A stretch of 64,000 nucleotides of DNA from a virus. This document shows positions 7,344 through 59,843 of this stretch, one piece after another. The position numbers and the translations under genes were made by a program. The DNA lies in IMG/VR virus record IMGVR_UViG_3300022744_000020, positions 124,001 to 188,000 of that record; one strand, written 5' to 3'. Position 1 is the first letter of the stretch; every line of letters begins with the position of its first letter. Below the pieces are notes generated by a model, which searched no databases, was not told the DNA's origin, and was given only the letters and a program-made list of their open reading frames with translations.

Positions 7344-7345
7344 TC

Positions 7346-13694: not shown

Positions 13695-13706
13695 AGAGAT
13701 ACAACC

Positions 13707-23614: not shown

Positions 23615-25048
23615 GTGACTAAACTCTCGGTAAGTCCTCTTGCTTTGGCAATCGAGTCTTGTCAGAACGTAGCGAGCTCGGAGGGAAACTTCCGAGCCGT
23701 CGCCCTGCAAGAAGCCAACGCGAGAAAATCGCTAGAAGGAAGAGCAGCTCACCGGGAATCGGTGGGTTTGCTCTCTTCTATGCACGTCTATTTGACCAAA
23801 CACCCCGCAACGATGGAGGGGGTGGAGTCGCGCTTCATGGCGCACTTAGCTGCAACTAGCTTGATGCTCCCAGCCAAAGCCAAGCCCAGCAAAGCTTTGG
23901 AGTCGTTCGATAAACCCACCGTTGCCCTGGAGGGGATTCTGGATGGGGTTCGTGCCCTTGTTCAAGAAATCGAGGGAAGCATTGCGGGTGCTGCTGAAAA
24001 AATGGCGGATTATGTTCAGGAATCCGGCGAATGTGTGGAAGAGCTTGAGGCCCTTCTGTCGGAAATTTCCTCGTCACTCACGACTGCTCCGCTGGCTGAA
24101 CCTCGGCTCAAGTGTTTAAAGCCAGAAGGTTGGATGTCGAATCTTCTCTACAGCGGTGGTTTCTCCAACGGACTGAAGAAACAGCTTCGTGATCTCAAAG
24201 GGCTCAGTGGTGACTACATGGAGCTGACAAAAAGCAGCTCCGACAAACTACTGAAGTGGTTTGAGGAAAATCGAAGCGAGGGCATGTCTGCGTTCGATTC
24301 TCTCGTGGTCAGCTCGGATGATTTTGTGATTCCTGGTATGTGTGCCGATCCAAAGGTTCTCACCGAGATCAATGAGACCTCGGAGCTGGAACTTAGCCAG
24401 GAAGATCAAATCTTCTCGACGCAAGAGCTTCCTGGTGGTGTGCGTTTCCTGATCAAGTGCTCTCTCGGTCAGTTCTCGTCGATTGATGCGATTGATGAGA
24501 TCTCGAAGGTGACTTATTGGAAGGCAACTTCCAATAGTGAGAAGCTCAAGTTCCTGGAAGAGCAAATCAAACAGGAAGAGCATCAGGACTCGATCGACTG
24601 GATTCGTCAAAACGAAGCTCGTCTCGGAGTCAACGCGCAACTGGCTCTCAGCCTGCACCAGAAACTGCATGAGGAAGAAGACCAAGAGCCTCAAAGACCG
24701 CAAGTTGTCGCAGTGAACAACACTTCGCCAGTTGAGTTCAAGTGCCTGACCCCCGATGAGATTGCGAATGCCTTGGCTGAGGTGAAAACTATCTTGGAGG
24801 GCATTCGTTACTGGACGGACAATTCTCTTCGGGATCGTTGGCGTGCTGGGGGTATGAACCAAATCGTGTCAGAGACCCTGCGCAAGGATCTGGACTCGAC
24901 CGCTTCAAAACACTACATGCGCGCGTTTTGCTTCTCGGTAACTCGTATGTTGCTGAGACAGAACTTTGGTGTTCAGCCCTACGTTCTCAACACGCTTCGC
25001 TCCGTTTTGCTTTACTGCAAGAAAAGTGCGCGACTCCACTACCAATGA
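23615..25048 (+). CDS. Internal-protein array member 1, 477 residues
   Basis: It starts with GTG 23615 behind GCGAGG. The N-terminal 105 residues form a leader without the LTLN element of later members, ending at VALE106/GILDGVRALVQEIEG. That Glu-Gly junction before an amphipathic helix is the same as the putative processing site in the other array members. The remainder is helical and acidic (EEDQEPQRP linker near 370). By analogy with phiKZ inner-body and other prohead-protease substrates it is probably packed in the head and cut during maturation. It is the most divergent member, so its membership is less certain. Confidence 0.6.
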   Translation: MTKLSVSPLALAIESCQNVASSEGNFRAVALQEANARKSLEGRAAHRESVGLLSSMHVYLTKHPATMEGVESRFMAHLAATSLMLPAKAKPSKALESFDKPTVALEGILDGVRALVQEIEGSIAGAAEKMADYVQESGECVEELEALLSEISSSLTTAPLAEPRLKCLKPEGWMSNLLYSGGFSNGLKKQLRDLKGLSGDYMELTKSSSDKLLKWFEENRSEGMSAFDSLVVSSDDFVIPGMCADPKVLTEINETSELELSQEDQIFSTQELPGGVRFLIKCSLGQFSSIDAIDEISKVTYWKATSNSEKLKFLEEQIKQEEHQDSIDWIRQNEARLGVNAQLALSLHQKLHEEEDQEPQRPQVVAVNNTSPVEFKCLTPDEIANALAEVKTILEGIRYWTDNSLRDRWRAGGMNQIVSETLRKDLDSTASKHYMRAFCFSVTRMLLRQNFGVQPYVLNTLRSVLLYCKKSARLHYQ

Positions 25049-25062
25049 ATCGGAGATCACCC

Positions 25063-26304
25063 ATGTTAGAAATTCCTGAAATCGAAGAAGGTGAAGACGT
25101 TCTTCACCTGTCGCTTGGCGAAGACCGGATCGAGGCCGGCAATGAGGTCGTTGAAGCTGCTGCGGACGACCTCCAAGAAACTCAAAAACAAGTGGACATG
25201 GTCGCCTCCGCCCCGAAGGAAGAGGTCAACGCACTGGTTTTGAATCAGCTCAATATGGCGATCGTGTCTTTCAAACGAGGGTGCGATTACCCCGTATCTC
25301 GCCAAGAAGGCAAGCCCGATCTGAACAAAAGTCTGGAAGACTGGAAGCAGACCGCCAAGAAGGCCGCTGACGATATCTACGCCTGGATCAAAAACCTCCT
25401 GGTGAAGATGGCTGAATTTTTGAACAATCATTTCGATGAAGTTCGTCGACTGAAAGGTTCAGCGGCTTCGATGGTTGAAGCCGCCAAGAGTCGCCAACAC
25501 ATGTCCGCCAAGGATGGGAAAATCGTTGTTGAGGGTGTGCTCGAAGCCCTGTACCATCAAGGAGAGAAAAGCTATCCCGGATCGACCCAGGTCAACAAAT
25601 TTTACGGTCTTCATTGCGGAGATGTGAGTGCCTGGATGGAAAACTCTTTTCATCAAGCACGCTTCAATCTACTTGAGTCGGTGATCGAAGATCTACTCAC
25701 GTCGGAATCGGCGAGCATCAGCGATGAAGAGTTGTGGAAAAAGATCCTGCCGATTTTCTCGGCCCTTCCTCAAGTGAAAGTTCGAAGCCTGAACCAAAAG
25801 AATCTTGCCCCCGGTATGACGAGGTATGAACAGCCTCTGTTCTACGACGCGAAGTCGATCTATGTGGAATCGCCGACGGCACGCGATTCCACTGCAGCTC
25901 CGCTTCTGAAGTATCTGAAATTCGGCGTGATGCAAGACAGTGCGTACACCGGCCGAGTAAAGGCGCAGAAGAGTACGGATCCGGACGATAAGAGCTCGGC
26001 TTCTACGATCCCTGTGCTTCCCACGGATGAGATCCAGAGAGTCTGTACTCAAATGCAGGCTTATCTCGACGAATACAAAAACACCAAAGCCAGTCTCGGC
26101 AACCTGGAGAAGTTGGCTGATAAAGTGCGTTCGACGAAATATTCTGAACATAACACCTTTGGCCGACAAGGGTATATTCTCCTGATCCTCAACCGGATCG
26201 TGGGTGGATATGTGAGTTTGGAGAAACAGCTCCGAGCTTACGATACCAGAGTCGCTCGAGCCGTTCTGAAGTGGTGCGAGAAGTCTCTCCACCAATACGT
26301 TTAA
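25063..26304 (+). CDS. Internal-protein array member 2, 413 residues
   Basis: The open frame runs back into the previous gene; ATG 25063 behind CGGAG gives a product that starts with an acidic leader (MLEIPEIEEGEDVLHLSLGE). The putative cut is at SRQE82/G83, followed by a helix DWKQTAKKAADDIYAWIKNL that matches the amphipathic segment after the cut in members 7 to 9. The mature part is mixed, with Lys-rich loops. Probable role: protein packed inside the head and processed by the prohead protease. No enzymatic motif is visible. Confidence 0.65.
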   Translation: MLEIPEIEEGEDVLHLSLGEDRIEAGNEVVEAAADDLQETQKQVDMVASAPKEEVNALVLNQLNMAIVSFKRGCDYPVSRQEGKPDLNKSLEDWKQTAKKAADDIYAWIKNLLVKMAEFLNNHFDEVRRLKGSAASMVEAAKSRQHMSAKDGKIVVEGVLEALYHQGEKSYPGSTQVNKFYGLHCGDVSAWMENSFHQARFNLLESVIEDLLTSESASISDEELWKKILPIFSALPQVKVRSLNQKNLAPGMTRYEQPLFYDAKSIYVESPTARDSTAAPLLKYLKFGVMQDSAYTGRVKAQKSTDPDDKSSASTIPVLPTDEIQRVCTQMQAYLDEYKNTKASLGNLEKLADKVRSTKYSEHNTFGRQGYILLILNRIVGGYVSLEKQLRAYDTRVARAVLKWCEKSLHQYV

Positions 26305-26322
26305 TCTTTTCACGAGACCGCT

Positions 26323-27477
26323 ATGTACCTGACTCTCAATCAACTCAGCAATCAGCCGGAAGTCGATCCGATCGTGGAGCCTGAGGCTCCGGATACGACG
26401 GAGCTGGAGACGGAAGTCGTCCAGCAAGAAACCGACAACATCGCTGAAGGCACTGCCGAAGCTTCGATCGAGGAAGCCGAACAAACCACGGAACTGGTCG
26501 GTGATGTGGCCGACGTTCTGGAAGGGGCTCCTGAAGCCAACGAAACGGCCGTGGAGCTTGGCCAAGTCGTCACCGAATCCCTCGCTCTGCGTTTCGGTCA
26601 AAAGCCGCGTCGACTCGGCAATGAATCGAAGATGACCTCTGGGCAAAGAAAGTCCCTGGTCGTGGTGACCAGTCGCCAATTCAACAAGTCCATGCAGCGG
26701 CAGCTCGCTCTTTCTCAGGAAGGGTTGGTCGACAACGTCAAGCAAGGATTTGCTGAAATGTTCAGCAGCCGCGATGGCATCGTTGAGGCTGCTAAGGAGG
26801 CTGCCGGAAAACTGAGTGCGGGAACCAAAGAGGGTCCGATCAAGGGGGCTGGCTGGCTTCGTCGGATCACCGACAAGGAAAGTGGCCTGATCAAGCCCGC
26901 GGATATCGCAACCTATCTCGGGAAATACCATTCTCAGATCGCGGGCACTGGCATTGTTCAAATGCTGACTGAAGCCGCGACACTTGTCAAGGAGATTGGC
27001 GAAGCATTTCGCGGAACTGACTCGGCTCCGAATGAAGCTGCGTTGAAGAAGCTGGGCTCTTTCCTCGTGGTCAGCGAAAAGAGCATGATCAAGATCGAAA
27101 AGAATCTGAGCAAGCTCAATCAATCGCAACTGCTGCTGCGTGAGATGAACGCAGAAAAAGGCGGGGCTGAGATGGTTCTGGCATGTGACGCTGAGACCGG
27201 GAAGAAGATCGCTACGATGGTCTCGGAGCTGATGTCGGATGACAAACTGAAGAAGGCGCTTCAAGAGTTTGATAGCGTGGTCTCCGCCGAGGGCTTCAAG
27301 AACGCAATGAAGTCGATGGTCCAGATCAACATTGCCAACATCACGGCAAACAAGACGGTGTTCCGAGAACTCCCGAAGGTCATCAAGGGTCTGAAGTCTT
27401 CGGTCAAGAAGCTCGACAGCATGGCCAAGAAACGTTGCCTGGCAGCGACGAACTATCTGGAAGCCTCCGCCAAGTAA
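26323..27477 (+). CDS. Internal-protein array member 3, 384 residues
   Basis: It begins with the recurrent leader MYLTLNQLSNQPEVDP, then about 60 very acidic residues and a basic stretch. The putative processing site is ALSQE133/GLVDNVKQGFAEMF, very similar to member 4. The mature part is helical with many Lys and Ser residues and no membrane span. Expression is probably high: codons are regular and GC-ending. It lies 21 bases before member 4 in the same transcript. Confidence 0.75.
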   Translation: MYLTLNQLSNQPEVDPIVEPEAPDTTELETEVVQQETDNIAEGTAEASIEEAEQTTELVGDVADVLEGAPEANETAVELGQVVTESLALRFGQKPRRLGNESKMTSGQRKSLVVVTSRQFNKSMQRQLALSQEGLVDNVKQGFAEMFSSRDGIVEAAKEAAGKLSAGTKEGPIKGAGWLRRITDKESGLIKPADIATYLGKYHSQIAGTGIVQMLTEAATLVKEIGEAFRGTDSAPNEAALKKLGSFLVVSEKSMIKIEKNLSKLNQSQLLLREMNAEKGGAEMVLACDAETGKKIATMVSELMSDDKLKKALQEFDSVVSAEGFKNAMKSMVQINIANITANKTVFRELPKVIKGLKSSVKKLDSMAKKRCLAATNYLEASAK

Positions 27478-27498
27478 TTTCGGAAGAAGACAAAGATC

Positions 27499-28635
27499 AT
27501 GAAGCAACACTACCTCACCCTGAATCTGCTGAGTCAAGAACTCCAAGCGGAACCGGAAACTCCCGCTGAAGGCGAACTCGCCGCCGCTGAAACTAGCAAG
27601 ACGCTGGCTGAAGACGTAGCGGTCGACCGCGTGTTGACGGAAGCCACCACGATCGCCGACACCGCCGATGCTTCGGCGGATGTGTTGGAAGCGGCCGCTG
27701 AAGAAGACAAGCCTGGAGCTGATGAAGCAACCGTCGAGGTGGCTGAAAAAGCCCTGGAACACTTCCATCAGCGGGCCTTCCTTGGCCCTCGGAAGGCAAG
27801 CACCTACAACACCTCCACGCCGAAGGATCGCCGGGAGACAGCACTGAAACTGGGTGCTGAAATGCGCCAAGTCAGCAAAGCGGTGCGCGGACGAATCCGC
27901 AAGTTCAGCTTGGGTCAAGAAGGATTCATCTCGAACGTCAAGTGGAGGTTCAGCGACCTCTTTGCAAGCAAAGAGAGCGTGCTGAGCAAACTCCATGTCT
28001 ACTCGGATGCATTCGATCGTTCTGGGGCGCGAACCGAACCCATTCTGGAAGCGGCCTGGGCCAAGGACCTCAACATCGACGGCTCGGGAAAGATCACAAC
28101 GGAGGGAGTGATCAAGGTTGCCTCGAAGATCATCAAGGATCTGGACGAGAAAACATTGATCGAAGCGATCAAAAACGCCGCTTCGATGGTGGACAATGTC
28201 TCGAAGATGAACGCGAGCTGGAACCCCACTGACGAGATGCAGCAAAAGTTGCAGAAGTCGGTCATGGAAATGTCCGAGATCAACATGCGAATTCTGGCTG
28301 ATGCCAGCGCCATGCGTCGGGCCAATGTTCGCGTGATGGCTGAACCGGTGGATCCGGGCAAGAAAGACGAGCTGGTCAAGCTCGTGTCTGAACTGCTGGA
28401 AACCAAGCAACTCGATCAAGCAATCGCGGAACTCGACGCTTCCCTCGAACTGTACTACAGCACGAGTGGTGGCGTGACGGACGAGGAATCGCATCGGAAC
28501 ACCCGAGAGGATCTGATCATCTCGGATGCCGTGGCGATCACCAACAAGCTGTACGTGCTTGACGGGATTCTCCTGAGCTTCGCACATGCGGTGACTGGCT
28601 ACATTCAAGCCAGCACCAACGCCGACAGTCATTGA
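27499..28635 (+). CDS. Internal-protein array member 4, 378 residues
   Basis: Leader MKQHYLTLNLLSQELQAEP is followed by acidic residues 20-90 and a basic stretch up to the putative cut FSLGQE141/GFISNVKWRFSDLFAS. Members 3, 4 and 5 share the segment after the cut (G-[FL]-x-[SD]-N-V, then a Phe-rich helix), so they form a subgroup. A hairpin terminator follows. The product is likely a proteolysed internal head protein. Confidence 0.75.
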   Translation: MKQHYLTLNLLSQELQAEPETPAEGELAAAETSKTLAEDVAVDRVLTEATTIADTADASADVLEAAAEEDKPGADEATVEVAEKALEHFHQRAFLGPRKASTYNTSTPKDRRETALKLGAEMRQVSKAVRGRIRKFSLGQEGFISNVKWRFSDLFASKESVLSKLHVYSDAFDRSGARTEPILEAAWAKDLNIDGSGKITTEGVIKVASKIIKDLDEKTLIEAIKNAASMVDNVSKMNASWNPTDEMQQKLQKSVMEMSEINMRILADASAMRRANVRVMAEPVDPGKKDELVKLVSELLETKQLDQAIAELDASLELYYSTSGGVTDEESHRNTREDLIISDAVAITNKLYVLDGILLSFAHAVTGYIQASTNADSH

Positions 28636-28652
28636 TTGACACAAAGCTAGCG

Positions 28653-28684
28653 ACAAAGCAGGGGGCGTGAGCTCCCTGCTTTGT
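28653..28684 (+). terminator. Hairpin terminator within the array
   Basis: ACAAAGCAGGG and its complement flank a 10-base loop, followed by TATTATTTTG. It splits the array into two transcripts. Confidence 0.75.
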
Positions 28685-28732
28685 ATTATTTTGTGATTAC
28701 CCCACCAATTCTCCCTTCTGGACGGATCTTTT

Positions 28733-29863
28733 ATGCGCACGCCTCGACTTTTCCTATCGAACCTCAACTACGACACGATTCCTGATGAAGACCTTCAGGC
28801 CCAGGCTGATCTGGAGGAAGATTGCTGTCAAGAAGCATCGGTCGTCGTGGATGAACTGGAAGATGCGGCTCAGGTCACCGCTGGCGCTGAGCGCATCGAA
28901 GCAGCTCTGAACCAGAGCCATCCGCAAAACGTGGAGGCTGCCAACCTTGCAGAAATAGCAGCGGAAAATCTGTTTGTGCAGCTCGGAATGAGAAAAGCAC
29001 ACAAACCCAAATTGGGGATTGAGTCCTCGATTTATGCTCAAAAGAGCAGCGTGCTGAAGCAAACCGACCGGCTCAAGGCTCTGGCCTTTGGCAAGAAAAG
29101 TGCCGCACTGGAAGGGTTCTTCGACAACGTGGGTTATGAATGGTCGCAATTCTGGACCTCCCAATCTGGACTGGTGAAGAAGAAAAGCGAAGTCTCGAAC
29201 GAGTATGATCAGAAAGGACCTCATTCGGAACTCCTTAAAGATCGTCCGTATGGCCGGATTCTTCGGCCGTCTGGGAAGTCCAACATTTCTGGCGCCGATG
29301 TTCTGGACACGATCAAGCGTTACAACCGAATGCTGACCAGCAACAAGATTGTGGAGTCGCTGAAGGAGATCTCGACCCTCACGACCGAGCTGGCCAAAAA
29401 CGTGGCGGGATATACAGTCACCTCGCTGGATGAAGATCGCATCCGGCAAGCCAGTGCTCAAATCTTCAATCTCTACGAATCGATCACTTCGGAGATTGTC
29501 CCGATCGGGGATAAGAAGAACTGCGACATCGAGCCGCTCCAGGCGGACGTAAAGCCCGACATCATGAAGATGATCGATGAGATGTACTCCAGCGCCGGCA
29601 TCGATGGCCAGCTCCGAGACATTAGCCAAGCGGTGGGCTTGTATCGCAAGGTAGGTGTTCGCAAGGTCACAACCTGGAAATACAACGAAACGAACGAACA
29701 GTGGTATTCTGAGGTGACGGACGTGATCAAGTCTCAGCGCGCCGAACTGGCCGTTCAAGACATTGAAAGTCTCCTGGCTCGATTGCGCGTGATTGTTGGT
29801 ATGCGCTTCAGTGTTTGTTTTGCTGTGGTTCGCTACATGCAAGAATCGATTCGGAAGGATTGA
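28733..29863 (+). CDS. Internal-protein array member 5, 376 residues
   Basis: The leader (MRTPRLFLSNLNYDTIPDED) is a diverged LTLNxL element, followed by acidic residues including CC at 31-32. The putative cut is KKSAALE127/GFFDNVGYEWSQFW, close to members 3 and 4. The mature region is helical and ends in a more hydrophobic segment (VIVGMRFSVCFAVVRYMQES) that also resembles the ends of members 6 and 8. It starts the second transcript of the array after the terminator at 28653. Confidence 0.75.
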   Translation: MRTPRLFLSNLNYDTIPDEDLQAQADLEEDCCQEASVVVDELEDAAQVTAGAERIEAALNQSHPQNVEAANLAEIAAENLFVQLGMRKAHKPKLGIESSIYAQKSSVLKQTDRLKALAFGKKSAALEGFFDNVGYEWSQFWTSQSGLVKKKSEVSNEYDQKGPHSELLKDRPYGRILRPSGKSNISGADVLDTIKRYNRMLTSNKIVESLKEISTLTTELAKNVAGYTVTSLDEDRIRQASAQIFNLYESITSEIVPIGDKKNCDIEPLQADVKPDIMKMIDEMYSSAGIDGQLRDISQAVGLYRKVGVRKVTTWKYNETNEQWYSEVTDVIKSQRAELAVQDIESLLARLRVIVGMRFSVCFAVVRYMQESIRKD

Positions 29864-29865
29864 TC

Positions 29866-30051
29866 GTGTACTTCACTCTGAACATTCTATCGGAAGGGCT
29901 GGATACCCCTGACGAAGAGGAAGAAGACAAAGAGCCTGAGATGGTCAGTGCAATCACTCCGCTTGCTGTGGATGATGTTTTCAAGAACAGCAAAGACATT
30001 CGACTGACCAATGAAGTCATGGGCAACATTCTCAAGAAGGGGTCGCCGTGA
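29866..30051 (+). CDS. Detached leader ORF of array member 6, 61 residues
   Basis: GTG 29866 with GGAAGGA at good spacing opens a short ORF whose product begins VYFTLNILSEGLDTPDEEEE, i.e. the same LTLN leader plus acidic stretch as members 3, 4, 7, 8 and 9. It then stops after 61 codons. The next ORF starts at 30048 with a GTGA overlap. The leader of member 6 therefore appears to have been separated from its body by a frame change, with translational coupling keeping the two in step. The upstream frame of the body is open past the junction, so a frameshift fusion is possible but no good slippery heptamer is seen. Confidence 0.65.
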   Translation: MYFTLNILSEGLDTPDEEEEDKEPEMVSAITPLAVDDVFKNSKDIRLTNEVMGNILKKGSP

Positions 30052-31316
30052 AATCCCGATTCTCTAACATCGGTAAGGAAGAATTTACCGACAAAGCCGA
30101 ACCCATTCCTGACGATGGTCTGGGTTTGTCTCACCTCGAAGCGAAACTGGAATACGATCAGCTCAGCATGACCGTGATGTGCGTGCACGGGCTGAGTCAG
30201 GCCCAGGAGCAGCTTCGTCGGTCATCCCAGACGCAGATCCAACCCAGCATCCTCAATGGACTCAACAAGGCCGTCGAGGCCCTCCAATGGGGATTTGAGG
30301 ATTGCAAGTTCACACCACTCAAGTCAGACCTCGCTCTGGCAACCGAATCCATCGGGACGTTGATTGGAAAAGGGATTGATACCCTGATTCGAATCATCAA
30401 GAACATCTTGCGGATTGCATTCACTTTTTCTAAGCGCATTCTCTCCAAGCGTGAGTTGTTGGCTCAAAGAGCCACTGGGCTTAGAAAGAAACTGGAGGCA
30501 AAAATCTCCAGCGGTGAAACTACCCTCAGTGGAACTCCTCCGAACGTCGGTACTCTGCCTTTGTGGTTGATCGCCCTGAGTCGTGAAGACAAGACGATTG
30601 CCGGGAATGGATTGAGCAAAATCTACACCGACATTCTGGCGATCAACGATGAGATTCGCATGGGTCAGCTCAATGCTTTCTCGTACAAGACCGACAAGGC
30701 CATCATCGATCATTTCCAGGATGCTGTTAAGCAGGCAGAAGCACCGCTCAGCGACAAGGACCGCGAAGAGCTCAAGCGTTTCGAGGTTGTGACCATCCCC
30801 AACAAACTCGGGGTGGCGAGCGATACTGATTCAGCCGACGGCGTGAAAACCGTGGTGTCCAAAGAACTCAGTGGTGGGTTTTCAATCAAGGTCCAGAGCA
30901 AAGAGGTCAAAGATGTAGCTTCTCTGCCGCACGGTCTGTCACACTTCCAAGCACGACTGACCAAAGAAACCGAGCCGAAAATCACGACGGTAGACGACCT
31001 GGACATCGAGACGAAAGAAGCACTCCTGCTGATCATCTCTGTTGACCGCCGAATGACGGATCGCTCGGTGGTGACCTCCACCGAGCAGCTCGTTGACAAG
31101 GTGAAAAACCTCAACGAAAGAATCGATATCTGGGCGCGATACGCTAAGGCGGGCAGCGGCACAGATGACTCCAAGCTGAAGGAAGCGCAAAGCTTCATCT
31201 TTTCCTTGACCAAGGCGATGATGTCGAAATACGTCACCTTTGCGATGGATCTTCTGAAATACGAAGTTGATTTGGCTGTGGCCATCATCCAGTATCTGGA
31301 TCATCAACTCGCTTGA
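30048..31316 (+). CDS. Internal-protein array member 6 (body), 422 residues
   Basis: It starts with GTG 30048 overlapping the stop of the 61-residue leader ORF. The N-terminal 100 residues match the basic/helical section that precedes the cut in other members, and the putative site is LALATE100/SIGTLIGKGIDTLIR. The part after it is an amphipathic helix and then Lys-rich helical sequence. The C-terminus (ALAVAIIQYLDHQL type) resembles members 5 and 8. Without the leader it may depend on the separate peptide for packaging. Confidence 0.7.
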   Translation: MKSRFSNIGKEEFTDKAEPIPDDGLGLSHLEAKLEYDQLSMTVMCVHGLSQAQEQLRRSSQTQIQPSILNGLNKAVEALQWGFEDCKFTPLKSDLALATESIGTLIGKGIDTLIRIIKNILRIAFTFSKRILSKRELLAQRATGLRKKLEAKISSGETTLSGTPPNVGTLPLWLIALSREDKTIAGNGLSKIYTDILAINDEIRMGQLNAFSYKTDKAIIDHFQDAVKQAEAPLSDKDREELKRFEVVTIPNKLGVASDTDSADGVKTVVSKELSGGFSIKVQSKEVKDVASLPHGLSHFQARLTKETEPKITTVDDLDIETKEALLLIISVDRRMTDRSVVTSTEQLVDKVKNLNERIDIWARYAKAGSGTDDSKLKEAQSFIFSLTKAMMSKYVTFAMDLLKYEVDLAVAIIQYLDHQLA

Positions 31317-31342
31317 AACCTCTTTCCCTGAATGGATTCGTA

Positions 31343-32704
31343 ATGAGAAATCTTCTCCAAAACCTGCTGAGCGACCCGGTGATCGTTCCAGGATCTCCAC
31401 AGCCGACCCCGGCAGCGCCCGTGACTGAAGTTCCGGCGATTCCTGAAAATACCGGGACGGAGGTTCTGACGGACCAAACGCTGGAAGTCATGGCCACGGC
31501 TCCGATCGAAGACCCTTCGGTCGAAGTGAATGATGAAGTGCTTCAACTCGAAGCGTACCTGACGGGTCTGGAAGATTACCAATCCCGCTGCATCGGAATT
31601 GCCGGTCATCTCGGTCAGGCCACGAAGGTCAGCAAGCAAGTGATGGCCGGGCTGGAATCGGCAACGGTGAGTCTGACAGAATACTACGGCTTGAAGAAGC
31701 CGAAGATTTCCAAGGAAGGCTTCATGGCCACGGCCAAGGAAGTCGGAGGCAAGATTCGCCAAGTCATTCTGGAGCTGATCAAGAAAATCCAGGAAGCCTT
31801 CAAGGCGTTCTTCAGTAAGGAGAATTTTCTTCTGAAGAAACTCGAAGATTTGATCTATCGTTGCCGTCAGAAGAACCAAGAAGCTGAGGAGACGGGTGAG
31901 ATTTATTATCCGTTTTTCCTGTCGGTGGATGGTTCCCCGCTTGAAGGAACTGAACTGACGGCAAAGACTATGGAGTTCTTGGAAAACTCTACCAAAATCC
32001 TTGAAGCGCTGCTCAAGGATTGCGAGGATGTGACTTCCGAGAAACTTTTCAAAGAAATCGACGCGCAACCAGATCGGGAATCTCTGATCCAACTGCTGAC
32101 GCGAGTGGCTGACATCTGCAAAGATCCTCTGCAGCGTCCGGAACTGGATTGGAAGACCGCAGGGTCTGGTGAGTCGTATCCAAACCAAACCTACGTCGAT
32201 TTGAAATTGGGCGGGATGCGCGCATACATTCCGAACTATCCGAGCGAAAGCTCCGAAGAAATCGCAGAAGCTCTGATTGCGAAGAAGGCTGAATCGACCC
32301 CGGGCGATTCTTCAAAGCCCGCAAAAAACAAGGTTGTGGATTTCCAGGGCACGTGCGTGTTTGCAGAGACGACTGGTGGGAAAACCCTTTCGGCCAATCG
32401 CGACAACTACAAACAACAAGACATTCTGGAGATGCTGGAAGCACTCAAAGAGTTTCTCACCAGCAGTCCGTACAAGACCATCGAGAAGTTAGCAGAAAAT
32501 GCTTTCCATCAGGCTTATACGAACTACCAGCATTTCGACCAACATCGCAAGGAAGACAACAATGGCGCGGCCATTGACAAGTGCTATTTGGTGGCCAGAT
32601 CGGTGATTCTTCAACCGTCGATCAAACTGTTGAACTGCATGGAGCAAATCGAAAACGCAATGCTCGCACTATCCACCAGCTTTTTGCTGTCCCCCAAGAA
32701 CTAA
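31343..32704 (+). CDS. Internal-protein array member 7, 453 residues
   Basis: ATG 31343 (MRNLLQNLLSDPVIVPG) is preferred to the upstream frame start at 31313 because it aligns with the leaders of its paralogues. A Pro/Glu-rich acidic region (20-80) leads to a putative cut KISKE125/GFMATAKEVGGKIRQ. The following segment carries FKAFFSKENFLLKKLE, which matches the KFKELWKYLT and KFKEFIKFIT segments of members 8 and 9. Probable packaged and processed head protein; no enzyme motif seen. Confidence 0.75.
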   Translation: MRNLLQNLLSDPVIVPGSPQPTPAAPVTEVPAIPENTGTEVLTDQTLEVMATAPIEDPSVEVNDEVLQLEAYLTGLEDYQSRCIGIAGHLGQATKVSKQVMAGLESATVSLTEYYGLKKPKISKEGFMATAKEVGGKIRQVILELIKKIQEAFKAFFSKENFLLKKLEDLIYRCRQKNQEAEETGEIYYPFFLSVDGSPLEGTELTAKTMEFLENSTKILEALLKDCEDVTSEKLFKEIDAQPDRESLIQLLTRVADICKDPLQRPELDWKTAGSGESYPNQTYVDLKLGGMRAYIPNYPSESSEEIAEALIAKKAESTPGDSSKPAKNKVVDFQGTCVFAETTGGKTLSANRDNYKQQDILEMLEALKEFLTSSPYKTIEKLAENAFHQAYTNYQHFDQHRKEDNNGAAIDKCYLVARSVILQPSIKLLNCMEQIENAMLALSTSFLLSPKN

Positions 32705-32720
32705 ACGCGGAAAATAACCC

Positions 32721-34148
32721 ATGTATAACCTCAATCTCCTGAATCTCGCCGGCGTCACCGATCCTGAAACTCCTCCGGTCGCGCTTCCTCCGATGGAAGT
32801 GCAAGCCATCGAAGAACCGGACTACGGTCCCGTTGAACAAACCGTGACGGAAATGCACGCGGCTGGTCAGACCCTGGACAACAGCGAAGAAGCATCCGAC
32901 GTACTGCTGAGCGTGGCCTCCGCTTTGGAGCCGACCATTCAAGAAAGCCAGCCGGGCGTGACCGATGTGCACGCCATGGAGGCACTGATGTTGGCCGTTG
33001 CGCCTTTGAGGATCATGGCTGGCGCCAAGGCAAGATCCAGCCGGCTGGCGATTGAAAATTTCGGCGATCGCAGCCTGAGCTATCGCGAAACCAATCTGGC
33101 AATCGAAGATCTCAAGAGCGTGGCCATGGCCGCCAAAGACAAGATTGTCGAGGGCATTCAGTGGCTTATCGAGAAGTTCAAGGAATTCATCAAGTTCATC
33201 ACGGATGCAGATCATCGGCAGATGGAAAAGGCCAAGAAACTGTTGGAACAAGCCAAAACCCACGCTGAAATGAAGGGTGGTTTGGAGGTGAGTTTCTTCG
33301 ACGGCTTGAATTTCCTGCAGTTGGGGATGTCTCAAGAACCCTTGAAGCCGGGATCTGCAGGTAAGCTCATCTCGACGTGGGCAGCCAATTTCAGTCTGAT
33401 CGAGAATCTGGTCGATACGAAAGACATGATCGATCGAATGAAGAAGATCGAAAGTCTGAAGGGAGACGAAGTCCAAGACAGCGCATACGACCTGGTTCGG
33501 CAATGCGTCAGTTTCAACATTGAAGGACTCAAGCACATCGAACGCGCTCCGGGCGTGCCTGAAGGATACACCATGTTTGTGGCGCCCATGATCATGGGTA
33601 AGCGACTGGCTGCAGTGGTTCCCAGCAACGCCGAAGGCGAGGAGTTCTGGAATGGGATCTCGCATGCCGGGATCTATCCGGTGATCATGTCGGGCGATGC
33701 CGCCATCGTTCGAGATGCCATGAAGAACAGTGAGGGATTCTTGTCTCTGGACAATAGCGAGTGTGTCTCGCTTACCCAAGCGGCAATCATGCACATCACT
33801 GCACGCCTGAATACGCGAAAAGCGTATGACGAGCTGGTTCGCGGCGTCGAGGAAATGAAGAATCACATCCTGAGTCTGCAGAAAAAACCGACCACCGAAG
33901 AGGAGTCCAAAGACAACAACAAGGCAAAGAGCATTGTTGGGCGCGTCGGTAAGGCTTTGTCGAAAACCGCTCTGTCCGGAATGTCGACCATTCAGAGCCT
34001 GAGCGCAAAACAGTGCGCTGTGGTTCTCAAGGTTGTGGCGGCTTCATTGCACGCCAATGGGCAAAAAGATGATGGCGAGCGGCAGCAGAATTCTAAGAAT
34101 GTGACGCCTCCGCCGGCGGGTGGTCAGAGCGTTCCGCTGCTGAACTAA
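32721..34148 (+). CDS. Internal-protein array member 8, 475 residues
   Basis: Leader MYNLNLLNLAGVTDPETPP, acidic stretch, then a putative cut RLAIE112/NFGDRSLS. Downstream it shares with member 9 the block LKSVAMAAKDKIVEGIQWLI followed by EKFKEFIKFITDADHRQMEK and KAKKLLEQAK. Members 8 and 9 are the closest pair and probably the newest duplication. The end carries a linker of Lys/Asp/Asn and a Pro/Gly tail (PPPAGGQSVPLLN). Confidence 0.78.
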   Translation: MYNLNLLNLAGVTDPETPPVALPPMEVQAIEEPDYGPVEQTVTEMHAAGQTLDNSEEASDVLLSVASALEPTIQESQPGVTDVHAMEALMLAVAPLRIMAGAKARSSRLAIENFGDRSLSYRETNLAIEDLKSVAMAAKDKIVEGIQWLIEKFKEFIKFITDADHRQMEKAKKLLEQAKTHAEMKGGLEVSFFDGLNFLQLGMSQEPLKPGSAGKLISTWAANFSLIENLVDTKDMIDRMKKIESLKGDEVQDSAYDLVRQCVSFNIEGLKHIERAPGVPEGYTMFVAPMIMGKRLAAVVPSNAEGEEFWNGISHAGIYPVIMSGDAAIVRDAMKNSEGFLSLDNSECVSLTQAAIMHITARLNTRKAYDELVRGVEEMKNHILSLQKKPTTEEESKDNNKAKSIVGRVGKALSKTALSGMSTIQSLSAKQCAVVLKVVAASLHANGQKDDGERQQNSKNVTPPPAGGQSVPLLN

Positions 34149-34161
34149 GCACATTCTTTGG

Positions 34162-34193
34162 TGACGCCCTGAACGTACGATAGACGGGCGTCA
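34162..34193 (+). terminator. Hairpin terminator between array members 8 and 9
   Basis: TGACGCCC and its complement GGGCGTCA surround a 16-base loop, followed by TTTTCTTTGTTTTG. Confidence 0.65.
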
Positions 34194-34226
34194 TTTTCTT
34201 TGTTTTGTTTTCTCCGGAGAATTTTC

Positions 34227-35738
34227 ATGTACCGTGGACTCACCCTGAACCTGCTGGCCAACGAACCCGAAATCGACCCGGTCGATCCGGCCCCGTCGGA
34301 AGAAGTCGTCGAAACGATGGCCGAAGAACCGGATCTGGCGCCGGTCGAAACCGTCGAAGCCCAAACCGACGCCGTCGAAGGCGTGCTGGATGATGGCCTG
34401 GCTGCCGCCGACAATCTCGACGATGTGGCCGAAAACCTGGAAGAAGCTTCGCAGGAAGAAAATCCTCAGATCAGCCCGGCCGCCATGGAAGCGCTGTTGG
34501 TCGCCCTGGAGCCGACGCGCCGTCGTGCCGGTGCCCCGGCACGCGCACTGAAGCTGGGCAAGGAAAGCTTCTCGGGCAAGAAGACCGCAGCCGAGCACAA
34601 GATCGCGCTGCATCTGGCTGCTGAAAACCTGAAGGACGTGGCCAGCAAGGGTCGTGATCTGGTGGTCGCTGGCATTCGTGCCATCATCGAGAAGTTCAAG
34701 GAACTCTGGAAGTACCTGACCGACCAAGATGAGCGTCTGCTGGTCAAGGCCAAGAAGCTGCTCGAATCCGCCAAGGCCGGTGGCACGGCTCCGGGTGGCA
34801 AGGATGTCGACTATGGCGACAAGGGCGAGCTGATGAAGGCGACGGCCGGTGTCGGCGCTGTGGCCAAGGCTGCTGAAATCATCAAGGCTTGGGAAGACCA
34901 AGCCAAGATGGCCGGTTCGCTGTGTTCGCACAACAGCGTGACCGCCGCACTGGCGAAATTCCTCCAGGAAATGAACGCCAACAAGAACGTGCTGGCCAAG
35001 CCGGGCGAGTTCGTCGAGGAAGACGCCAAGAAGATCTACGAGGCTCTGGCTGAAGTCAAGACCTTCGACGTGTCGAGTCTGACCAAGGCAGGCGATGCAC
35101 AACTGGCTGGTCGCAAACTGGGCAAGTTCTGTGAAGGCTTCGTCTCCGCACCGTTCCTGGGTCAACAGCTCCTGGTCATCACCATGAATGGCGAATCCGC
35201 CACCCCGGAAACCCAGGGTGAGTTCGATTCCTGCCTGAGCATGTGTGGCATCTTCCGTGTCGACGTGAAGAAGGAAAAGGCCGATGGCAAGGGCAAATCG
35301 CTGTCGAACCAAGACACCGCCGCTCTGGCTCAGGCTGCCGTCAAGCACACCGAAGAGCGTATCAAGTCGCGCGAACTGGTGAATGCCGTGGACAAGAGCC
35401 TGGAATCCATCGTGACGCTGATGGAGTCCATCATCAAGGAAGCCATGGCTGCCGACATCAACGAAGCTGGCAAGAACGCCACTACGGCGATGGATGCGAT
35501 CAAGGGCGGTGCCGCGGCCAGTCAGAAGGCTTCGAAACTGCTTTCGACCGTCAAGTCGAACGCCAAGTCGATCGCCTCCTCGGCCACGCGCGCTCTGGGC
35601 GCTGTTCGCTCGCTGGATGCCAAGATGACCTCGGCCGTGCTGGACATCTGCGCCACCAGCCTGAACGCCAACAAGGGTGAAGGTGGTGCTGCCGCCCTGC
35701 CGGCTCCTGGAGCCGCTCCGGCTGCCGCTGCCGCGTAA
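34227..35738 (+). CDS. Internal-protein array member 9, 503 residues, strongly codon-biased
   Basis: ATG 34227 behind CCGGAGA gives leader MYRGLTLNLLANEPEIDP, acidic residues 20-80, and a putative cut KLGKE113/SFSGKKTAAEHK. Residues 130-175 match member 8 (EKFKELWKYLTDQDERLLVK). The end is a long Ala-rich tail with a final Pro/Ala/Gly segment. Codon use is the most biased in the window (GGC, CTG, AAG, GTC dominate), which argues for very high expression, as expected for the most abundant internal protein. Alternatives are a scaffold or a decoration protein, but the shared leader ties it to the array. Confidence 0.78.
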   Translation: MYRGLTLNLLANEPEIDPVDPAPSEEVVETMAEEPDLAPVETVEAQTDAVEGVLDDGLAAADNLDDVAENLEEASQEENPQISPAAMEALLVALEPTRRRAGAPARALKLGKESFSGKKTAAEHKIALHLAAENLKDVASKGRDLVVAGIRAIIEKFKELWKYLTDQDERLLVKAKKLLESAKAGGTAPGGKDVDYGDKGELMKATAGVGAVAKAAEIIKAWEDQAKMAGSLCSHNSVTAALAKFLQEMNANKNVLAKPGEFVEEDAKKIYEALAEVKTFDVSSLTKAGDAQLAGRKLGKFCEGFVSAPFLGQQLLVITMNGESATPETQGEFDSCLSMCGIFRVDVKKEKADGKGKSLSNQDTAALAQAAVKHTEERIKSRELVNAVDKSLESIVTLMESIIKEAMAADINEAGKNATTAMDAIKGGAAASQKASKLLSTVKSNAKSIASSATRALGAVRSLDAKMTSAVLDICATSLNANKGEGGAAALPAPGAAPAAAAA

Positions 35739-43348: not shown

Positions 43349-43375
43349 GCATATATCACCTGTGTGGATCGAACT
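43349..43375 (+). promoter_or_regulatory. CATATA-type phage promoter, copy D
   Basis: GCATATATCACC followed by TGTGTGGATCGAAC matches the core and downstream box of the other copies. The core lies 65 bases before ATG 43415. Confidence 0.55.
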
Positions 43376-46263: not shown

Positions 46264-46683
46264 GTGAGTACACTGCTTAACCCAGCCGAGCTGAGTGAGA
46301 TTGCGTTCTTTCACCCGGTGAGCAGCAAGGTATGGCTGATGGATGCCACCGAGCAAGAAAAGGAACATTACCGAAGATTCAAGGCGTGTCCTTGGGGGTG
46401 TGTGAAAAGGCTGTTTCCTTTACCGGACGGACAGCTATCAACCAAACTCATCACAATTAATTCTTTCGGGAGCAAGAATCGATTGGGCATGCACGATTAC
46501 TTGATATTCGGCTACGACAACCACGCATGTCCTCCCGGAGTATTCCGCCCGACGGTAAGCGGCTACGCTGCTGTGGGTAAAAGCACATCCCTGTTAGAAA
46601 TCTGGCGTCACAAACCGTACGCGGTAGAGCAAATGCTCAAAGATCTTGTCTCCGTGCACTATCAAATCTGCCCTGAACTCTGA
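46264..46683 (+). CDS. NPWGC-family paralogue 1, 139 residues
   Basis: It starts at GTG 46264 behind CGGAG. Along with the next two genes it shares an order of motifs: LLNPAELSEIAFF, then FKACPWGCVKRL, TINSFGSKNR, YLIFGYDNHACPPGVFRP, and a C-terminal helix with EIWRHKP and MLKDLVSVHY. The family is unknown to me. The three genes are a tandem triplication and probably dosage- or specificity-related. The CPWGC element (residues about 42-46) is the most conserved. Confidence 0.7.
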   Translation: MSTLLNPAELSEIAFFHPVSSKVWLMDATEQEKEHYRRFKACPWGCVKRLFPLPDGQLSTKLITINSFGSKNRLGMHDYLIFGYDNHACPPGVFRPTVSGYAAVGKSTSLLEIWRHKPYAVEQMLKDLVSVHYQICPEL

Positions 46684-46692
46684 GGAAGCACC

Positions 46693-47064
46693 ATGACCTA
46701 CACCCTACTCACCCCGGAAGAACTTCGTGACATTGACTTCTACGTCCCTTCCTTGGAAGATCCTGAATTGAATCCTGCACGACTGAAGTGTGCCGAGAAG
46801 TTCAAGACCAACCCCTGGGGCTGCGTCAAGTTCGTTGACCGCAAGTCCGGAAAGACGAAGTTCTTGTCGGTCGATTCGTTCAGCAGCAAAACCCCTGGCC
46901 GCACCAACGTGGTTGTCTACGGGTTCGAAGAACTGGACGGTCAGTACAACCCGATTGCGTTGGGAATTCTGACCCACGATGCCATTCGCACATTGACTGA
47001 AGTCTGGGAGAAAGATCCTTCTTCGGTTCGGTTCCTGGTGAAGTGCCTCTCGACGCTTTACTGA
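46693..47064 (+). CDS. NPWGC-family paralogue 2, 123 residues
   Basis: It has LLTPEELRDIDFY, FKTNPWGCVKFV, SVDSFSSKTPG, VVYGFEELDGQYNPIALG and a C-terminal helix (EVWEKDPSSVRFLVKCLSTLY). The segment GYDNHAC of paralogue 1 is here GFEELDG. The start is preceded by AGGAAG. It is coupled with its neighbours by short gaps of 9 and 19 bases. Confidence 0.7.
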   Translation: MTYTLLTPEELRDIDFYVPSLEDPELNPARLKCAEKFKTNPWGCVKFVDRKSGKTKFLSVDSFSSKTPGRTNVVVYGFEELDGQYNPIALGILTHDAIRTLTEVWEKDPSSVRFLVKCLSTLY

Positions 47065-47083
47065 AGCATCCAAGGAGTTAGAC

Positions 47084-47491
47084 GTGCCGCCTAAATTCAT
47101 CAAGCTTCTCACACCGCAAGAAATCCAAGCGATGGGGTTCAATAAAGACAGATCCCATCAGATTCTCCCCGATTTGGCCGCTCATTATCAGCGATTCTCT
47201 ACAAACCCGTGGGGTTGTGCGCTGATCGAGGTGGACGATCGCGGCGTTGTTGGAAACAAGGTAAACAAATATCTCAGCATCGACACAGTTGCACGCGGGG
47301 ACGATGGGGTTCTGCATTGGCTGGTTTACGGTTACGATGACTTTGGATGTCAAGAAGGAGAATATCGCCCCATTACGGTATTGGAAGCACCCGCTTACGC
47401 GGAAATACTTCAGCTCTATCAAGAGCATCCAAAGCTTTTGACGAACCTGTTAGAAACCCTCCATTTGAACCTTGGCCAGATCTTTCTTTGA
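47084..47491 (+). CDS. NPWGC-family paralogue 3, 135 residues
   Basis: GTG 47084 is the start, with AAGGAG upstream. It has LLTPQEIQAMGFN, FSTNPWGCALIEV, SIDTVARGDDG, YGYDDFGCQEGEYRPI and the C-terminal helix LYQEHPKLLTNLLETL. Closest to paralogue 1 in the GYD...C segment. Function unknown. Confidence 0.7.
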   Translation: MPPKFIKLLTPQEIQAMGFNKDRSHQILPDLAAHYQRFSTNPWGCALIEVDDRGVVGNKVNKYLSIDTVARGDDGVLHWLVYGYDDFGCQEGEYRPITVLEAPAYAEILQLYQEHPKLLTNLLETLHLNLGQIFL

Positions 47492-56603: not shown

Positions 56604-57881
56604 ATGGACATTTCAGCAATCTTTGATTCTCTATCTGGCTGGATAGAGAAATACAACACCCTGATGGGCAATAACGGCTTCCTTGCCGCAACTCTAGCGG
56701 GAGGACTCATGTACGCACTGTCTTGGATTTTCGAAAGACTGTGCGCAACTGTCAATTGGCTCTTCCGGTTCAGTGTGATTCAACTCACCCTGCAATACGA
56801 CGGAGATCAATCGAATCAAGTCAACTACGCCATCTTTCTCCGGTGGGTTCAACCCAAACTACTGAGTGCCTTTTCTCGGATCGCAACAGTGCGAACAAAG
56901 AAAAGAGACTGGTACACCGACGAAGATAGTGAGCCAGGACAACGATTTCTGTCGGTGTCTCAAGGGCTTCATTTCTTCTTTTACGAGAAGCGACTCTTCT
57001 GGATATTCCTAAGCATCAACGATACTCTCGCCACCGAAACCAACAAAGAAGCCATTAACGTTTACAGTTTCGGCTTTGATACGTCTGTTTTCAAGCGGAT
57101 GGTGATGGAGGTTTTCCCAGCTAAAGTGGACGAAGGAAAGCTCAAAGTTTTTTCTATGTCGACCGGCATCGGGAAAGACGAGATCGGAGACGACATCTGG
57201 TCCAGTAAGGAATATCCTCCTCGTTTGCTTGATTCGGTAGCGATGCCTGACGCTACCCGGAAGCAATTAGAAGATTCAATGGAAAGATTCCTGAGTATGC
57301 GGGAGTGGTACACGAGGAACGGAATCCCATACAAGCTGGGTATTTGTTTCTATGGTCCTCCCGGTACCGGAAAAAGCTCGATCTCTCGGGCGATAGCGCA
57401 TCACCTCAAGCGCAATCTTTATTGCATCAACCTCAGCGAAGTTTCCAACCTGGCCTTCACTGCCCTGCTTCGAAACATTCCTCCAAAGTCGGTGGTGCTG
57501 TTTGAAGACGTGGACACCAACACGAACCTCCACTGCCGCACCTACGGTCACAAAGAGGACGACAAGAAGGTAGGTCTGGGAACTGTTCTCAACGGAATCG
57601 ATGGTGCAGAGGTTCTGGATGATCTCGTGCTCATCTTTAATACCAACGCGTATGAAGTGCTTGACCCAGCCTTTCGCCGCGCCGGGCGTTTTGATTTACC
57701 GCTGTATATCGGCAACCTCAATGCAGAGCTGGTAAAGAAGCGGATGCATTACTGCTATGGAGAGGAAGCCCTGGCAATCGATCTGCCAGAAGGGTTTGAG
57801 ATAAACGGATCCGAACTCCAGAGGATCATCAACGAAAATCCATTGGATGCAAAAGCCGCCATTCTTCGCTTGACAGCATAA
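56604..57881 (+). CDS. BCS1-like membrane-anchored AAA ATPase
   Basis: The 425-residue protein has an N-terminal hydrophobic region (about 24-60), a middle domain rich in strands (residues 80-220, YSFGFDTSVFKRMVMEVFP) and a classical AAA module: Walker A GPPGTGKS at 251-258, Walker B VVLFEDVD at 297-304, sensor 1 IFNTN at about 343, and an arginine-finger region RRAGRFDLP at 358-366. The order span - specific domain - AAA core with VxLFEDVD is that of BCS1-type translocases, which move folded proteins across membranes. The start has an A/C-rich leader (ACCAACCAACATG). It stands between two terminators as a single-gene unit. Confidence 0.85.
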   Translation: MDISAIFDSLSGWIEKYNTLMGNNGFLAATLAGGLMYALSWIFERLCATVNWLFRFSVIQLTLQYDGDQSNQVNYAIFLRWVQPKLLSAFSRIATVRTKKRDWYTDEDSEPGQRFLSVSQGLHFFFYEKRLFWIFLSINDTLATETNKEAINVYSFGFDTSVFKRMVMEVFPAKVDEGKLKVFSMSTGIGKDEIGDDIWSSKEYPPRLLDSVAMPDATRKQLEDSMERFLSMREWYTRNGIPYKLGICFYGPPGTGKSSISRAIAHHLKRNLYCINLSEVSNLAFTALLRNIPPKSVVLFEDVDTNTNLHCRTYGHKEDDKKVGLGTVLNGIDGAEVLDDLVLIFNTNAYEVLDPAFRRAGRFDLPLYIGNLNAELVKKRMHYCYGEEALAIDLPEGFEINGSELQRIINENPLDAKAAILRLTA

Positions 57882-57941: not shown

Positions 57942-58481
57942 ATGGCAAACTCAGGCGATGGATTCACCGACAACGGCGTTATCAAGTTCAGTATCAATTT
58001 CCCCCCAAACGAGGAACGCAAGGATACTCCTTTGTTCACCAGAACAAGAAAAATCTTATCCAAAGACATCGGAGGTAGATGCTATGTTTGCAATCGAACA
58101 GCCAAGGAGTCTGGTTCTGCACTAGAAGCGCACCATCATCCGATCATGCGAGCTTTCATGCCGATCGTGGATTGGGAGAGGTTCTCCAAAGAAGCAAAAG
58201 CTGGTATTTGGGGTGCTCGTATTGCGTCCTTTGACTGGTCTAAGTTCGATCCGAACAACCCTGTAACCTTTGTAGACGACATGCGTTACAACGGGATGCT
58301 TCTCTGCGTTGATCACCACCGCACCGCAAATCAGGGCATCCATAATTTGCCGTACCCTCTGTTCATCGCCCAGAAATATGCGAAAGAAGGATACGTCTTC
58401 AGTGGCAATGAAGTGATTGTTCGAGGTCACGATACCGCCGCCCAACAAACGCTGACGGATATTGGTTTGTCCAAAATTTAA
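57942..58481 (+). CDS. HNH-like zinc-binding protein, 179 residues
   Basis: It has a CxxC knuckle (CYVCNR, Cys47 and Cys50), LEAHHHPI (His64-66), and a second element MLLCVDHHRTANQGIHNLPY (Cys122, His125, His126), i.e. the order of an HNH/treble-clef fold. This type, ending in GIHNLPYPLFIAQKY, occurs in many phages as an unannotated protein. It could be a nuclease or a DNA-binding protein; the double HH pairs keep catalysis possible. There is no clear Shine-Dalgarno. It is a single gene after a terminator. Confidence 0.7.
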   Translation: MANSGDGFTDNGVIKFSINFPPNEERKDTPLFTRTRKILSKDIGGRCYVCNRTAKESGSALEAHHHPIMRAFMPIVDWERFSKEAKAGIWGARIASFDWSKFDPNNPVTFVDDMRYNGMLLCVDHHRTANQGIHNLPYPLFIAQKYAKEGYVFSGNEVIVRGHDTAAQQTLTDIGLSKI

Positions 58482-58579
58482 TAGCGGTACATTATCAATC
58501 TGATTCGGAGCCATACTCCCAATCCGTCGTAAATCTTCAAGACGAAAAACTGAAGAAATCACGTTCAGAAGGATCCATC

Positions 58580-59197
58580 ATGCGTTTTCTCTCACTCTTC
58601 CGTCCGATCTGGATGGCAGCGATCTTCAGTCTGGCTGCGCTCTTCATCCCGATGAGTTCTCAGGCCCAGACCAATCACGGCTTCACCGTCACCCTCAACG
58701 GCGACTGGTATCTCCAAGTGGGGGATGTCCTGAATCAGAGTGATCCCGGAATCTCCATCGTCGGCCTGGAATACGGAACCGGTCCATTCCGTGAGGGTGG
58801 GGCTATTTTCCAGCACTTCACGGGCAACGCCACCGAACTCCAACCCTTCCCTGGCTACTCGGACTACTACGGTCTCAATCAGTGGGGCTTCAGCCCGGTT
58901 GCTCCTGGCGATCGTTTCTACTTCTCGGGTTTGGACCTGGACATTCTGCAACCGGGACTGATCCCGGATGGAAACTACATCGACACTGCCGGAGGCACCA
59001 TGCGCGATGCCTACGTGGAAGTGTTGTTCTCGGACGGCTTCTACAAACGGCTGAGTCTGAACAGCACGCCCTGGCTGCAAACGCAGATCCTGCAGTTCAC
59101 CGAACAGGTGAGCCCCGTGCCTGAGCCGAGCGAGGCCACGATGCTGATCCTGGGTCTGGCGATGCTCGGAGTGCATCGCCGTCGACAGAAGCGTTGA
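58580..59197 (+). CDS. Secreted PEP-CTERM sorting protein, 205 residues
   Basis: A signal peptide (residues 1-29: MRFLSLFRP, hydrophobic core, cleavage after SSQAQ) is followed by a beta-rich Gly/Tyr/Phe domain and a C-terminal sorting signal: VPEPS at 180-184, hydrophobic segment MLILGLAMLG, then HRRRQKR at the end. That is the PEP-CTERM tripartite motif, which host exosortase recognises and removes as it delivers the protein to the cell surface. AGAAGGA gives a good binding site before ATG 58580. The domain between resembles no family I know. Such a gene is not expected in a lytic phage; it may be captured from the host and used to alter the cell surface. Confidence 0.85.
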   Translation: MRFLSLFRPIWMAAIFSLAALFIPMSSQAQTNHGFTVTLNGDWYLQVGDVLNQSDPGISIVGLEYGTGPFREGGAIFQHFTGNATELQPFPGYSDYYGLNQWGFSPVAPGDRFYFSGLDLDILQPGLIPDGNYIDTAGGTMRDAYVEVLFSDGFYKRLSLNSTPWLQTQILQFTEQVSPVPEPSEATMLILGLAMLGVHRRRQKR

Positions 59198-59220
59198 TCG
59201 CTGACGACTGAAGTCTGAAT

Positions 59221-59252
59221 CAGAGTCCAAGCCGTAATCGGCTTGGACTCTG
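59221..59252 (+). terminator. Hairpin terminator with TAAT loop
   Basis: A perfect 14-bp stem (CAGAGTCCAAGCCG and its complement), followed by TATCTATTTTATTTT. Confidence 0.88.
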
Positions 59253-59336: not shown

Positions 59337-59843
59337 ATGGCACGAGTAGAATGGTGGTTTGGGCGACCTGTGTTTTTCGGCGATCACGTGCGCAACGCAT
59401 ATTGCGGAAACGCAAGATTGATGGGTGAAGATTTCGGAGTCCCGGCCCTGAAGGAAATTTCCTCAGTTTGGGACCAATTCAAAGCCCCTGACTTCATGAA
59501 CTTCTTAGAGGAGATCTATGTTTTCATTGGCAAGAATCTCGAGGAGAAGCTTTCCCCGAATCAGCTCTATGCGGCAATCGCTCATGAGCTAGGACATTAC
59601 GAGTTCAGGCACTGCTTTAAACCCCCTAGGGATATGTCAGAGCGTCTGGCCCAGGAAATGGAGGCTGATCAATTCGCCATTTCTTTAGGTGCCGACCCCG
59701 AAAGCTTACTGGAAGTGATCGCTCTGATAAACGCGGAAGAGATTAAAGAGCTTTCAAAGACCAAGACTCCAGCCGAGATCGGCAAAATCTTGGACCAACA
59801 TTACAAGGACATGGGTCCCAGATACTTGGCTTTGTCCAAGTAA
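59337..59843 (+). CDS. Small soluble HExxH metallopeptidase-like protein, 168 residues
   Basis: AIAHELGHYEFRH gives zinc ligands His83 and His87 and catalytic Glu84; EMEADQFA (Glu109) follows as the third ligand in the M48-like arrangement. There is no signal or membrane span, so the protein should be cytoplasmic. It is a compact version of the catalytic region of the tandem pair at 12264 and 13707, which share the ADQF element. TAAGGA lies before the ATG. It is the only gene behind promoter copy F. Confidence 0.75.
   Translation: MARVEWWFGRPVFFGDHVRNAYCGNARLMGEDFGVPALKEISSVWDQFKAPDFMNFLEEIYVFIGKNLEEKLSPNQLYAAIAHELGHYEFRHCFKPPRDMSERLAQEMEADQFAISLGADPESLLEVIALINAEEIKELSKTKTPAEIGKILDQHYKDMGPRYLALSK

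Follow-up and report, generated by a model that had tools for sequence, protein, structure and literature searches.

Why should a giant bacteriophage encode a protein with a PEP-CTERM tail, the tag by which an exosortase directs proteins to the surface of certain biofilm-forming Gram-negative bacteria? The question is raised by an open reading frame in a 270,383-base virus record, of which positions 124001-188000 were analysed (64,000 nucleotides, hereafter the window; coordinates refer to the window unless another record is named). Here we argue, with somewhat more confidence than doubt, that the frame encodes a bacterial-type PEP-CTERM surface protein which serves as accessory cargo of a phiKZ-like phage and makes use of the exosortase of its host.

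The gene and the phage that carries it

The carrier is a giant phiKZ-like phage of 270 kb. Its record encodes a phiKZ-type RNA polymerase subunit (phrog_2962, E=2e-105) and a large protein of the phage family phrog_3248, a family of unassigned function (E=3e-282). Judged by the polymerase subunit, the closest cultured relative found is Burkholderia phage FLC9 (36.6% identity), and the best relative in IMG/VR shares 40% identity. Phage genes flank the PEP-CTERM frame on both sides and extend past the right end of the window, where thymidylate synthase, ribonucleotide reductase and phrog_9995 are encoded, so that chimerism of the contig is unlikely. Together with the polymerase subunit and the phage structural genes, this upholds the assignment to a phage made in an earlier note on this DNA. 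The whole record contains a single PEP-CTERM gene; searches of its 270 kb gave no exosortase and, unlike in bacterial exosortase systems, no EPS genes.

The gene is located on the + strand at 58580..59197 and encodes 205 aa from an ATG start codon, 5' of which a ribosome-binding site, AGAAGGA, was read from the sequence (58567..58573, +). The product consists of MRFLSLFRPIWMAAIFSLAALFIPMSSQA, followed by a body of 148 residues, followed by SPVPEPSEATMLILGLAMLGVHRRRQKR. Residues 1-29 (58580..58666, +) form a putative signal peptide, assigned by hydropathy, with a helix at residues 8-22 in the structure model; the body comprises residues 30-177 (58667..59110, +), and the tail residues 180-205 (59117..59194, +), with VPEPS, a hydrophobic stretch and HRRRQKR. 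A terminator-like hairpin (59221..59252, +), with a T-rich stretch after its 14 pairs, starts 24 bases past the end of the gene. The upstream neighbour is an HNH endonuclease of the phage family phrog_8048 (57942..58481, +; PHROGs match), and no terminator-like site is listed between the two genes; the downstream neighbour is an M48-like metalloprotease with a HELGH motif (phrog_87, 59337..59843, +; profile match). An antisense frame at 58592-59230 was dismissed, because the family match, the ribosome-binding site, the terminator and all neighbours are on the + strand.

Upstream signals were inspected as well. Sigma-54 sites precede some bacterial PEP-CTERM genes, and none that was convincing was found upstream of the phage gene. 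An upstream element shared by positions 58513 and 59276, ATACTCCC, barely exceeds chance. The heptamer CATATAT, present at 43350, 50109, 52851 and 59271, 14 to 66 bases 5' of four + strand frames, could belong to a promoter of the phage, its count in the window being close to chance.

Several other features of the window were recorded. An AAA ATPase with a BCS1-like N-terminus (PF08740, phrog_7485), common to many jumbo phages, is encoded at 56604-57881. Seven or eight consecutive frames of 376 to 512 aa and similar layout at 23615-35738, of which the one tested had no PHROG match, are probably paralogous internal head proteins, and two adjacent related frames at 12264-14999, with HExxH motifs (LHEVGHLF, HHEFGHVF) and hydrophobic spans, are probably membrane metalloproteases. 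Three small consecutive frames at 46264-47491 have a common NPWGC motif and are apparently tandem paralogues.

Tail class and body of the protein

The C-terminus had been described in the earlier note as an intact VPEPS - hydrophobic - RRR tail of the PEP-CTERM class, and the curated models confirm this at the exact C-terminus. For TIGR02595 (cut-off 16) the score was 17.9 bits when the protein was scanned and 20.7 bits (E=3.2e-4) when the whole record was, and PF07589 scored 23.2 bits (cut-off 20.7). The match covers residues 180-204 of 205, leaving one residue before the stop codon. The variant tail models PEPxxWA and VPLPA scored under their cut-offs, as did the longer PEP-CTERM subfamily models, which matched the tail only.

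Members of the class are recognized by a PEP motif, a membrane helix and a basic cluster at the extreme C-terminus, combined with a signal peptide and no other span (Haft 2006, PMC1569441). In the phage protein the PEP motif is followed by the helix and by the basic cluster, less than 10 residues from the C-terminus. The protein starts with MRFLSLFRP, a hydrophobic run and SSQAQ, which is signal-peptide-like as judged by hydropathy, and cleavage would be expected after AQA or nearby. Hydropathy gave no hydrophobic span besides the predicted signal peptide and the tail helix, and the signal peptide proposed earlier thus stands as a prediction. A beta-rich domain, also proposed, fits a single-sequence AlphaFold2 model, but this model is very poor (pLDDT 40) and the domain is not established.

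Bacterial PEP-CTERM proteins have bodies with little Cys, few basic residues and elevated Ser, Thr and Asn, and for most of these bodies there is no homologue (Haft 2006, PMC1569441). The body of the phage protein contains 0% Cys, 2.7% Arg and 0.7% Lys, the latter compared to 6.3% in the phage's other proteins of the window; the Lys content of the protein is lower than that of every other phage protein compared. Thr amounts to 7.4 vs 5.7%, Asn to 4.7 vs 4.4% and Ser to 5.4 vs 7.2%.

The chance level of such a tail was estimated from 150 third-order Markov shuffles of the window, using ORFs of at least 80 residues. Among 40,725 shuffled ORFs a PEP-hydrophobic-basic end occurred once, and never together with a signal-like start, compared to exactly one ORF in the real window, in which both are present. 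Sequence of phiKZ-like relatives totalling 273 kb contains no such tail.

Homologues of the body were not found in viral contigs, genome contigs, INPHARED phages, 49 phiKZ-like relatives or the PDB, and PHROGs holds no family for the protein. Among 399 Pseudomonadota genomes there were matches to the tail only, and 399 genomes of one bacterial order yielded no convincing homologue of the body; those of the searches that used short exact seeds overlook distant relatives. The exact tail VPEPSEATM gave two matches in genome contigs, both judged to be due to chance, and a search for synteny in viral contigs, with the neighbouring genes as anchors and 8-mer seeds, gave no relatives. The gene is known from one copy, and its body, with neither a homologue nor a reliable model, indicates no activity.

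Similar tails in other viruses and the host exosortase

The earlier note had called such a protein unexpected on a phage. This is true of its own clade, as a similar tail was found in one of 52 phiKZ-like relatives searched: FLC9 and FLC6 gave no PEP-CTERM match, and across 50 further phiKZ-like records TIGR02595 matched once. The exception, a 194,866-base phiKZ-like record (L183), encodes at 6967-7722 a secreted matrixin (M10) metalloprotease (PF00413, E=1e-24) with a signal peptide and a VSEP tail of 16.6 bits (TIGR02595 cut-off 16). Being nearly absent from phiKZ-like relatives, the tail does not answer a conserved need of the clade. Beside the matrixin gene there are a lipoprotein-like ORF without PHROG match and a coiled-coil membrane ORF, which are spanin-like.

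The expectation does not extend to viral contigs at large, where such tails recur. Pattern scans of IMG/VR for VPEPSxxxLLxxG and VPEPTxxxLLxxG returned 61 and 23 ORFs, respectively, with the motif near the C-terminus, corresponding to approximately 80 C-terminal PEP tails; a small number of the 61 are questionable, and some contigs occur more than once. Terminase_6N was detected in 13 of 31 PEP-tail records tested (ten above cut-off), among them one of 228 kb with two PEP-CTERM genes. The bodies are diverse, among them a C39-like peptidase and a PATR-repeat protein, and conserved viral PEP-CTERM families have dN/dS values of 0.08-0.39 between contigs. A conserved family of large PEP-CTERM proteins (approximately 600 to 900 aa, with a PATR repeat in one member) is shared by five contigs (L012, L027, L046, L064 and L072), four of which have a terminase match, and its dN/dS is likewise 0.08-0.39. 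In some cases, e.g. L038 and L078 beside integrase-like genes, the viral PEP-CTERM locus may lie in host DNA that flanks a provirus, and such loci were not counted as proof. The novelty lies in the viral setting of PEP-CTERM proteins and its recurrence, as no description of phage PEP-CTERM proteins was found in the literature searched, mainly open-access journal papers.

No exosortase was found in the viral contigs with two seed motifs, both derived from one bacterial order and not exhaustive. Within one sampled bacterial order, not necessarily that of the host, the enzyme is present in 57 of 150 genomes. Recurrent viral tags and no viral exosortase found suggest that some phages rely on the sorting enzyme of the host. 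The dependence on an exosortase-bearing host stated in the earlier note is therefore a sound inference, drawn from the record and the viral contigs alike; the actual host may lack the enzyme.

Possible role and known systems

As surface cargo, the protein would be exported by Sec during infection, and its C-terminal helix would anchor it in the inner membrane with the PEP motif at the periplasmic face, in accordance with the published PEP-CTERM model (PMC1569441). The host exosortase would act at the motif and the body would end up on the outer surface or in the exopolysaccharide, where it would most likely alter the surface of the infected cell, e.g. by masking a receptor against further phage or by changing bound EPS, and this would presumably benefit the phage. 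The earlier note had considered a block of adsorption of competing phage, altered exopolysaccharide or flocs, or shielding of the infected cell as roles that the protein might have. We favour this reading because of the tail, which exceeds curated cut-offs at the exact C-terminus and has a low chance rate, and the class-like composition; because of the phage genes on both sides and the record without exosortase; because of the L183 matrixin tail, the viral recurrence, the terminases (13/31) and the dN/dS of 0.08-0.39; and because in Aquincola a PEP-CTERM protein turns soluble EPS into bound EPS (PMC9850573). To the right of the window, at record positions 197,155-198,897 (L248:9155-10897), the phage also encodes a 580-aa lipoprotein with the lipobox LSACGGG and a Pro/Thr-rich linker. 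Over residues 85-579 it shares 30% identity (E=3e-36) with a protein from a sampled bacterial genome, to which its body is related; the phage collection contains no match. This bacterial-type lipoprotein supports the idea of a phage that equips the envelope of its host.

The composition of the gene raises the question of its origin. Its GC content is 58.4%, compared to approximately 48% in the flanks, an island which suggests acquisition, and one could imagine a host PEP-CTERM gene captured recently, perhaps with the adjoining HNH endonuclease, and carried as a neutral passenger of no benefit to the phage. The neighbouring HNH gene and the failure to find the gene in the relatives searched are consistent with this account. 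It is nevertheless unlikely: neither the reading frame nor the ribosome-binding site nor the terminator is disrupted, the gene ranks seventh of 59 in how well its codon use fits the phage, and purifying selection acts on other viral PEP-CTERM families. Because the gene agrees with the phage in codon choice and is equalled in GC content by a few other phage genes, recent capture, a possibility that the earlier note wished to see checked, is not shown; nor was a host homologue of the body found.

It is more doubtful still that the protein is an ordinary membrane-anchored periplasmic protein, e.g. for lysis, in which the PEP motif is incidental. Some anchored periplasmic proteins do consist of a signal peptide and a C-terminal helix, and a 96,442-base viral contig (L065) contains a PEP-like ORF of 60 aa, with a lipobox and a VPEPS tail, that resembles a small unimolecular spanin and whose end scores as PEP-CTERM. 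The phage protein, however, contains no Cys and hence not the lipobox cysteine that follows the signal sequence of outer-membrane or unimolecular spanins, its Lys content sets it apart from every other phage protein compared, and its tail passes the curated models at the exact C-terminus with a very low chance rate. Moreover, the signal-peptide SLT transglycosylase of this phage, encoded near record position 238,000 and followed by a second SLT-like frame, is approximately 55 kb distant, so that the PEP-CTERM gene is not part of that region.

Alternatively, the main effect could be that of a decoy: the protein would occupy the exosortase in competition with the PEP-CTERM substrates of the host, and fewer host surface proteins, which may be receptors or EPS anchors, would be displayed, the body being dispensable. 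This would agree with viral substrates found without exosortase, with very diverse viral bodies that have the tail alone in common, and with the high GC3 and strong terminator of the gene. It is very improbable, with a weight close to that of an ordinary anchor, given that the body forms an intact domain of some length and that enzyme domains in other viral members (matrixin, C39-like peptidase) suggest that bodies matter.

The surface-cargo reading may have a wider counterpart. We tentatively consider, as a possibility that we hold to be less than even, that phages in general exploit the host exosortase. Many unrelated ones would carry PEP-CTERM substrates (orphan bodies, proteases, repeat proteins) and leave the enzyme to the host, the substrates serving either to reshape the surface or EPS of infected cells or as competitors of host substrates. 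If so, the present phage would be a phiKZ-like example of a wider, undescribed strategy. PEP-CTERM proteins have so far been studied as floc, biofilm and EPS factors of bacteria. If lytic phages deploy their own, bacteria with an exosortase in activated sludge, freshwater and soil would be subject to phage control at an unrecognised point, on the cell surface. The tail would then serve as a computable clue to host range, the host being expected to carry an exosortase, and the conserved viral PEP-CTERM families make the idea directly testable.

Compared to the bacterial substrates of the PEP-CTERM/exosortase (EpsH) system (TIGR02595, PF07589; PMC1569441), the phage protein has the same signal-like start, PEP motif, hydrophobic stretch and basic end, the same extreme C-terminal position, low Cys and basic residues, and an orphan body. 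Unlike them, it is phage-encoded and present in a single copy, in a record without exosortase, EPS genes or convincing sigma-54 site, and its Ser and Asn are not raised. The PepA-type floc-associated PEP-CTERM proteins of Zoogloea and Aquincola (PMC9850573; NF033554) are alike in tail type; NF033554 matches the tail only, at 20.1 bits (cut-off 80), and the bodies are not similar. The L183 matrixin shares the broad phage clade, the signal peptide and a PEP-CTERM-like tail, and differs in its metalloprotease body and VSEP tail, the two bodies being dissimilar. Known phage surface and superinfection-exclusion proteins, e.g. T5 Llp, are anchored as lipoproteins or by plain membrane anchoring. They are likewise encoded by the phage and, if our proposal is right, share with the present protein a destination in the envelope of the infected cell, in which case use of the host exosortase would be a new route to it.
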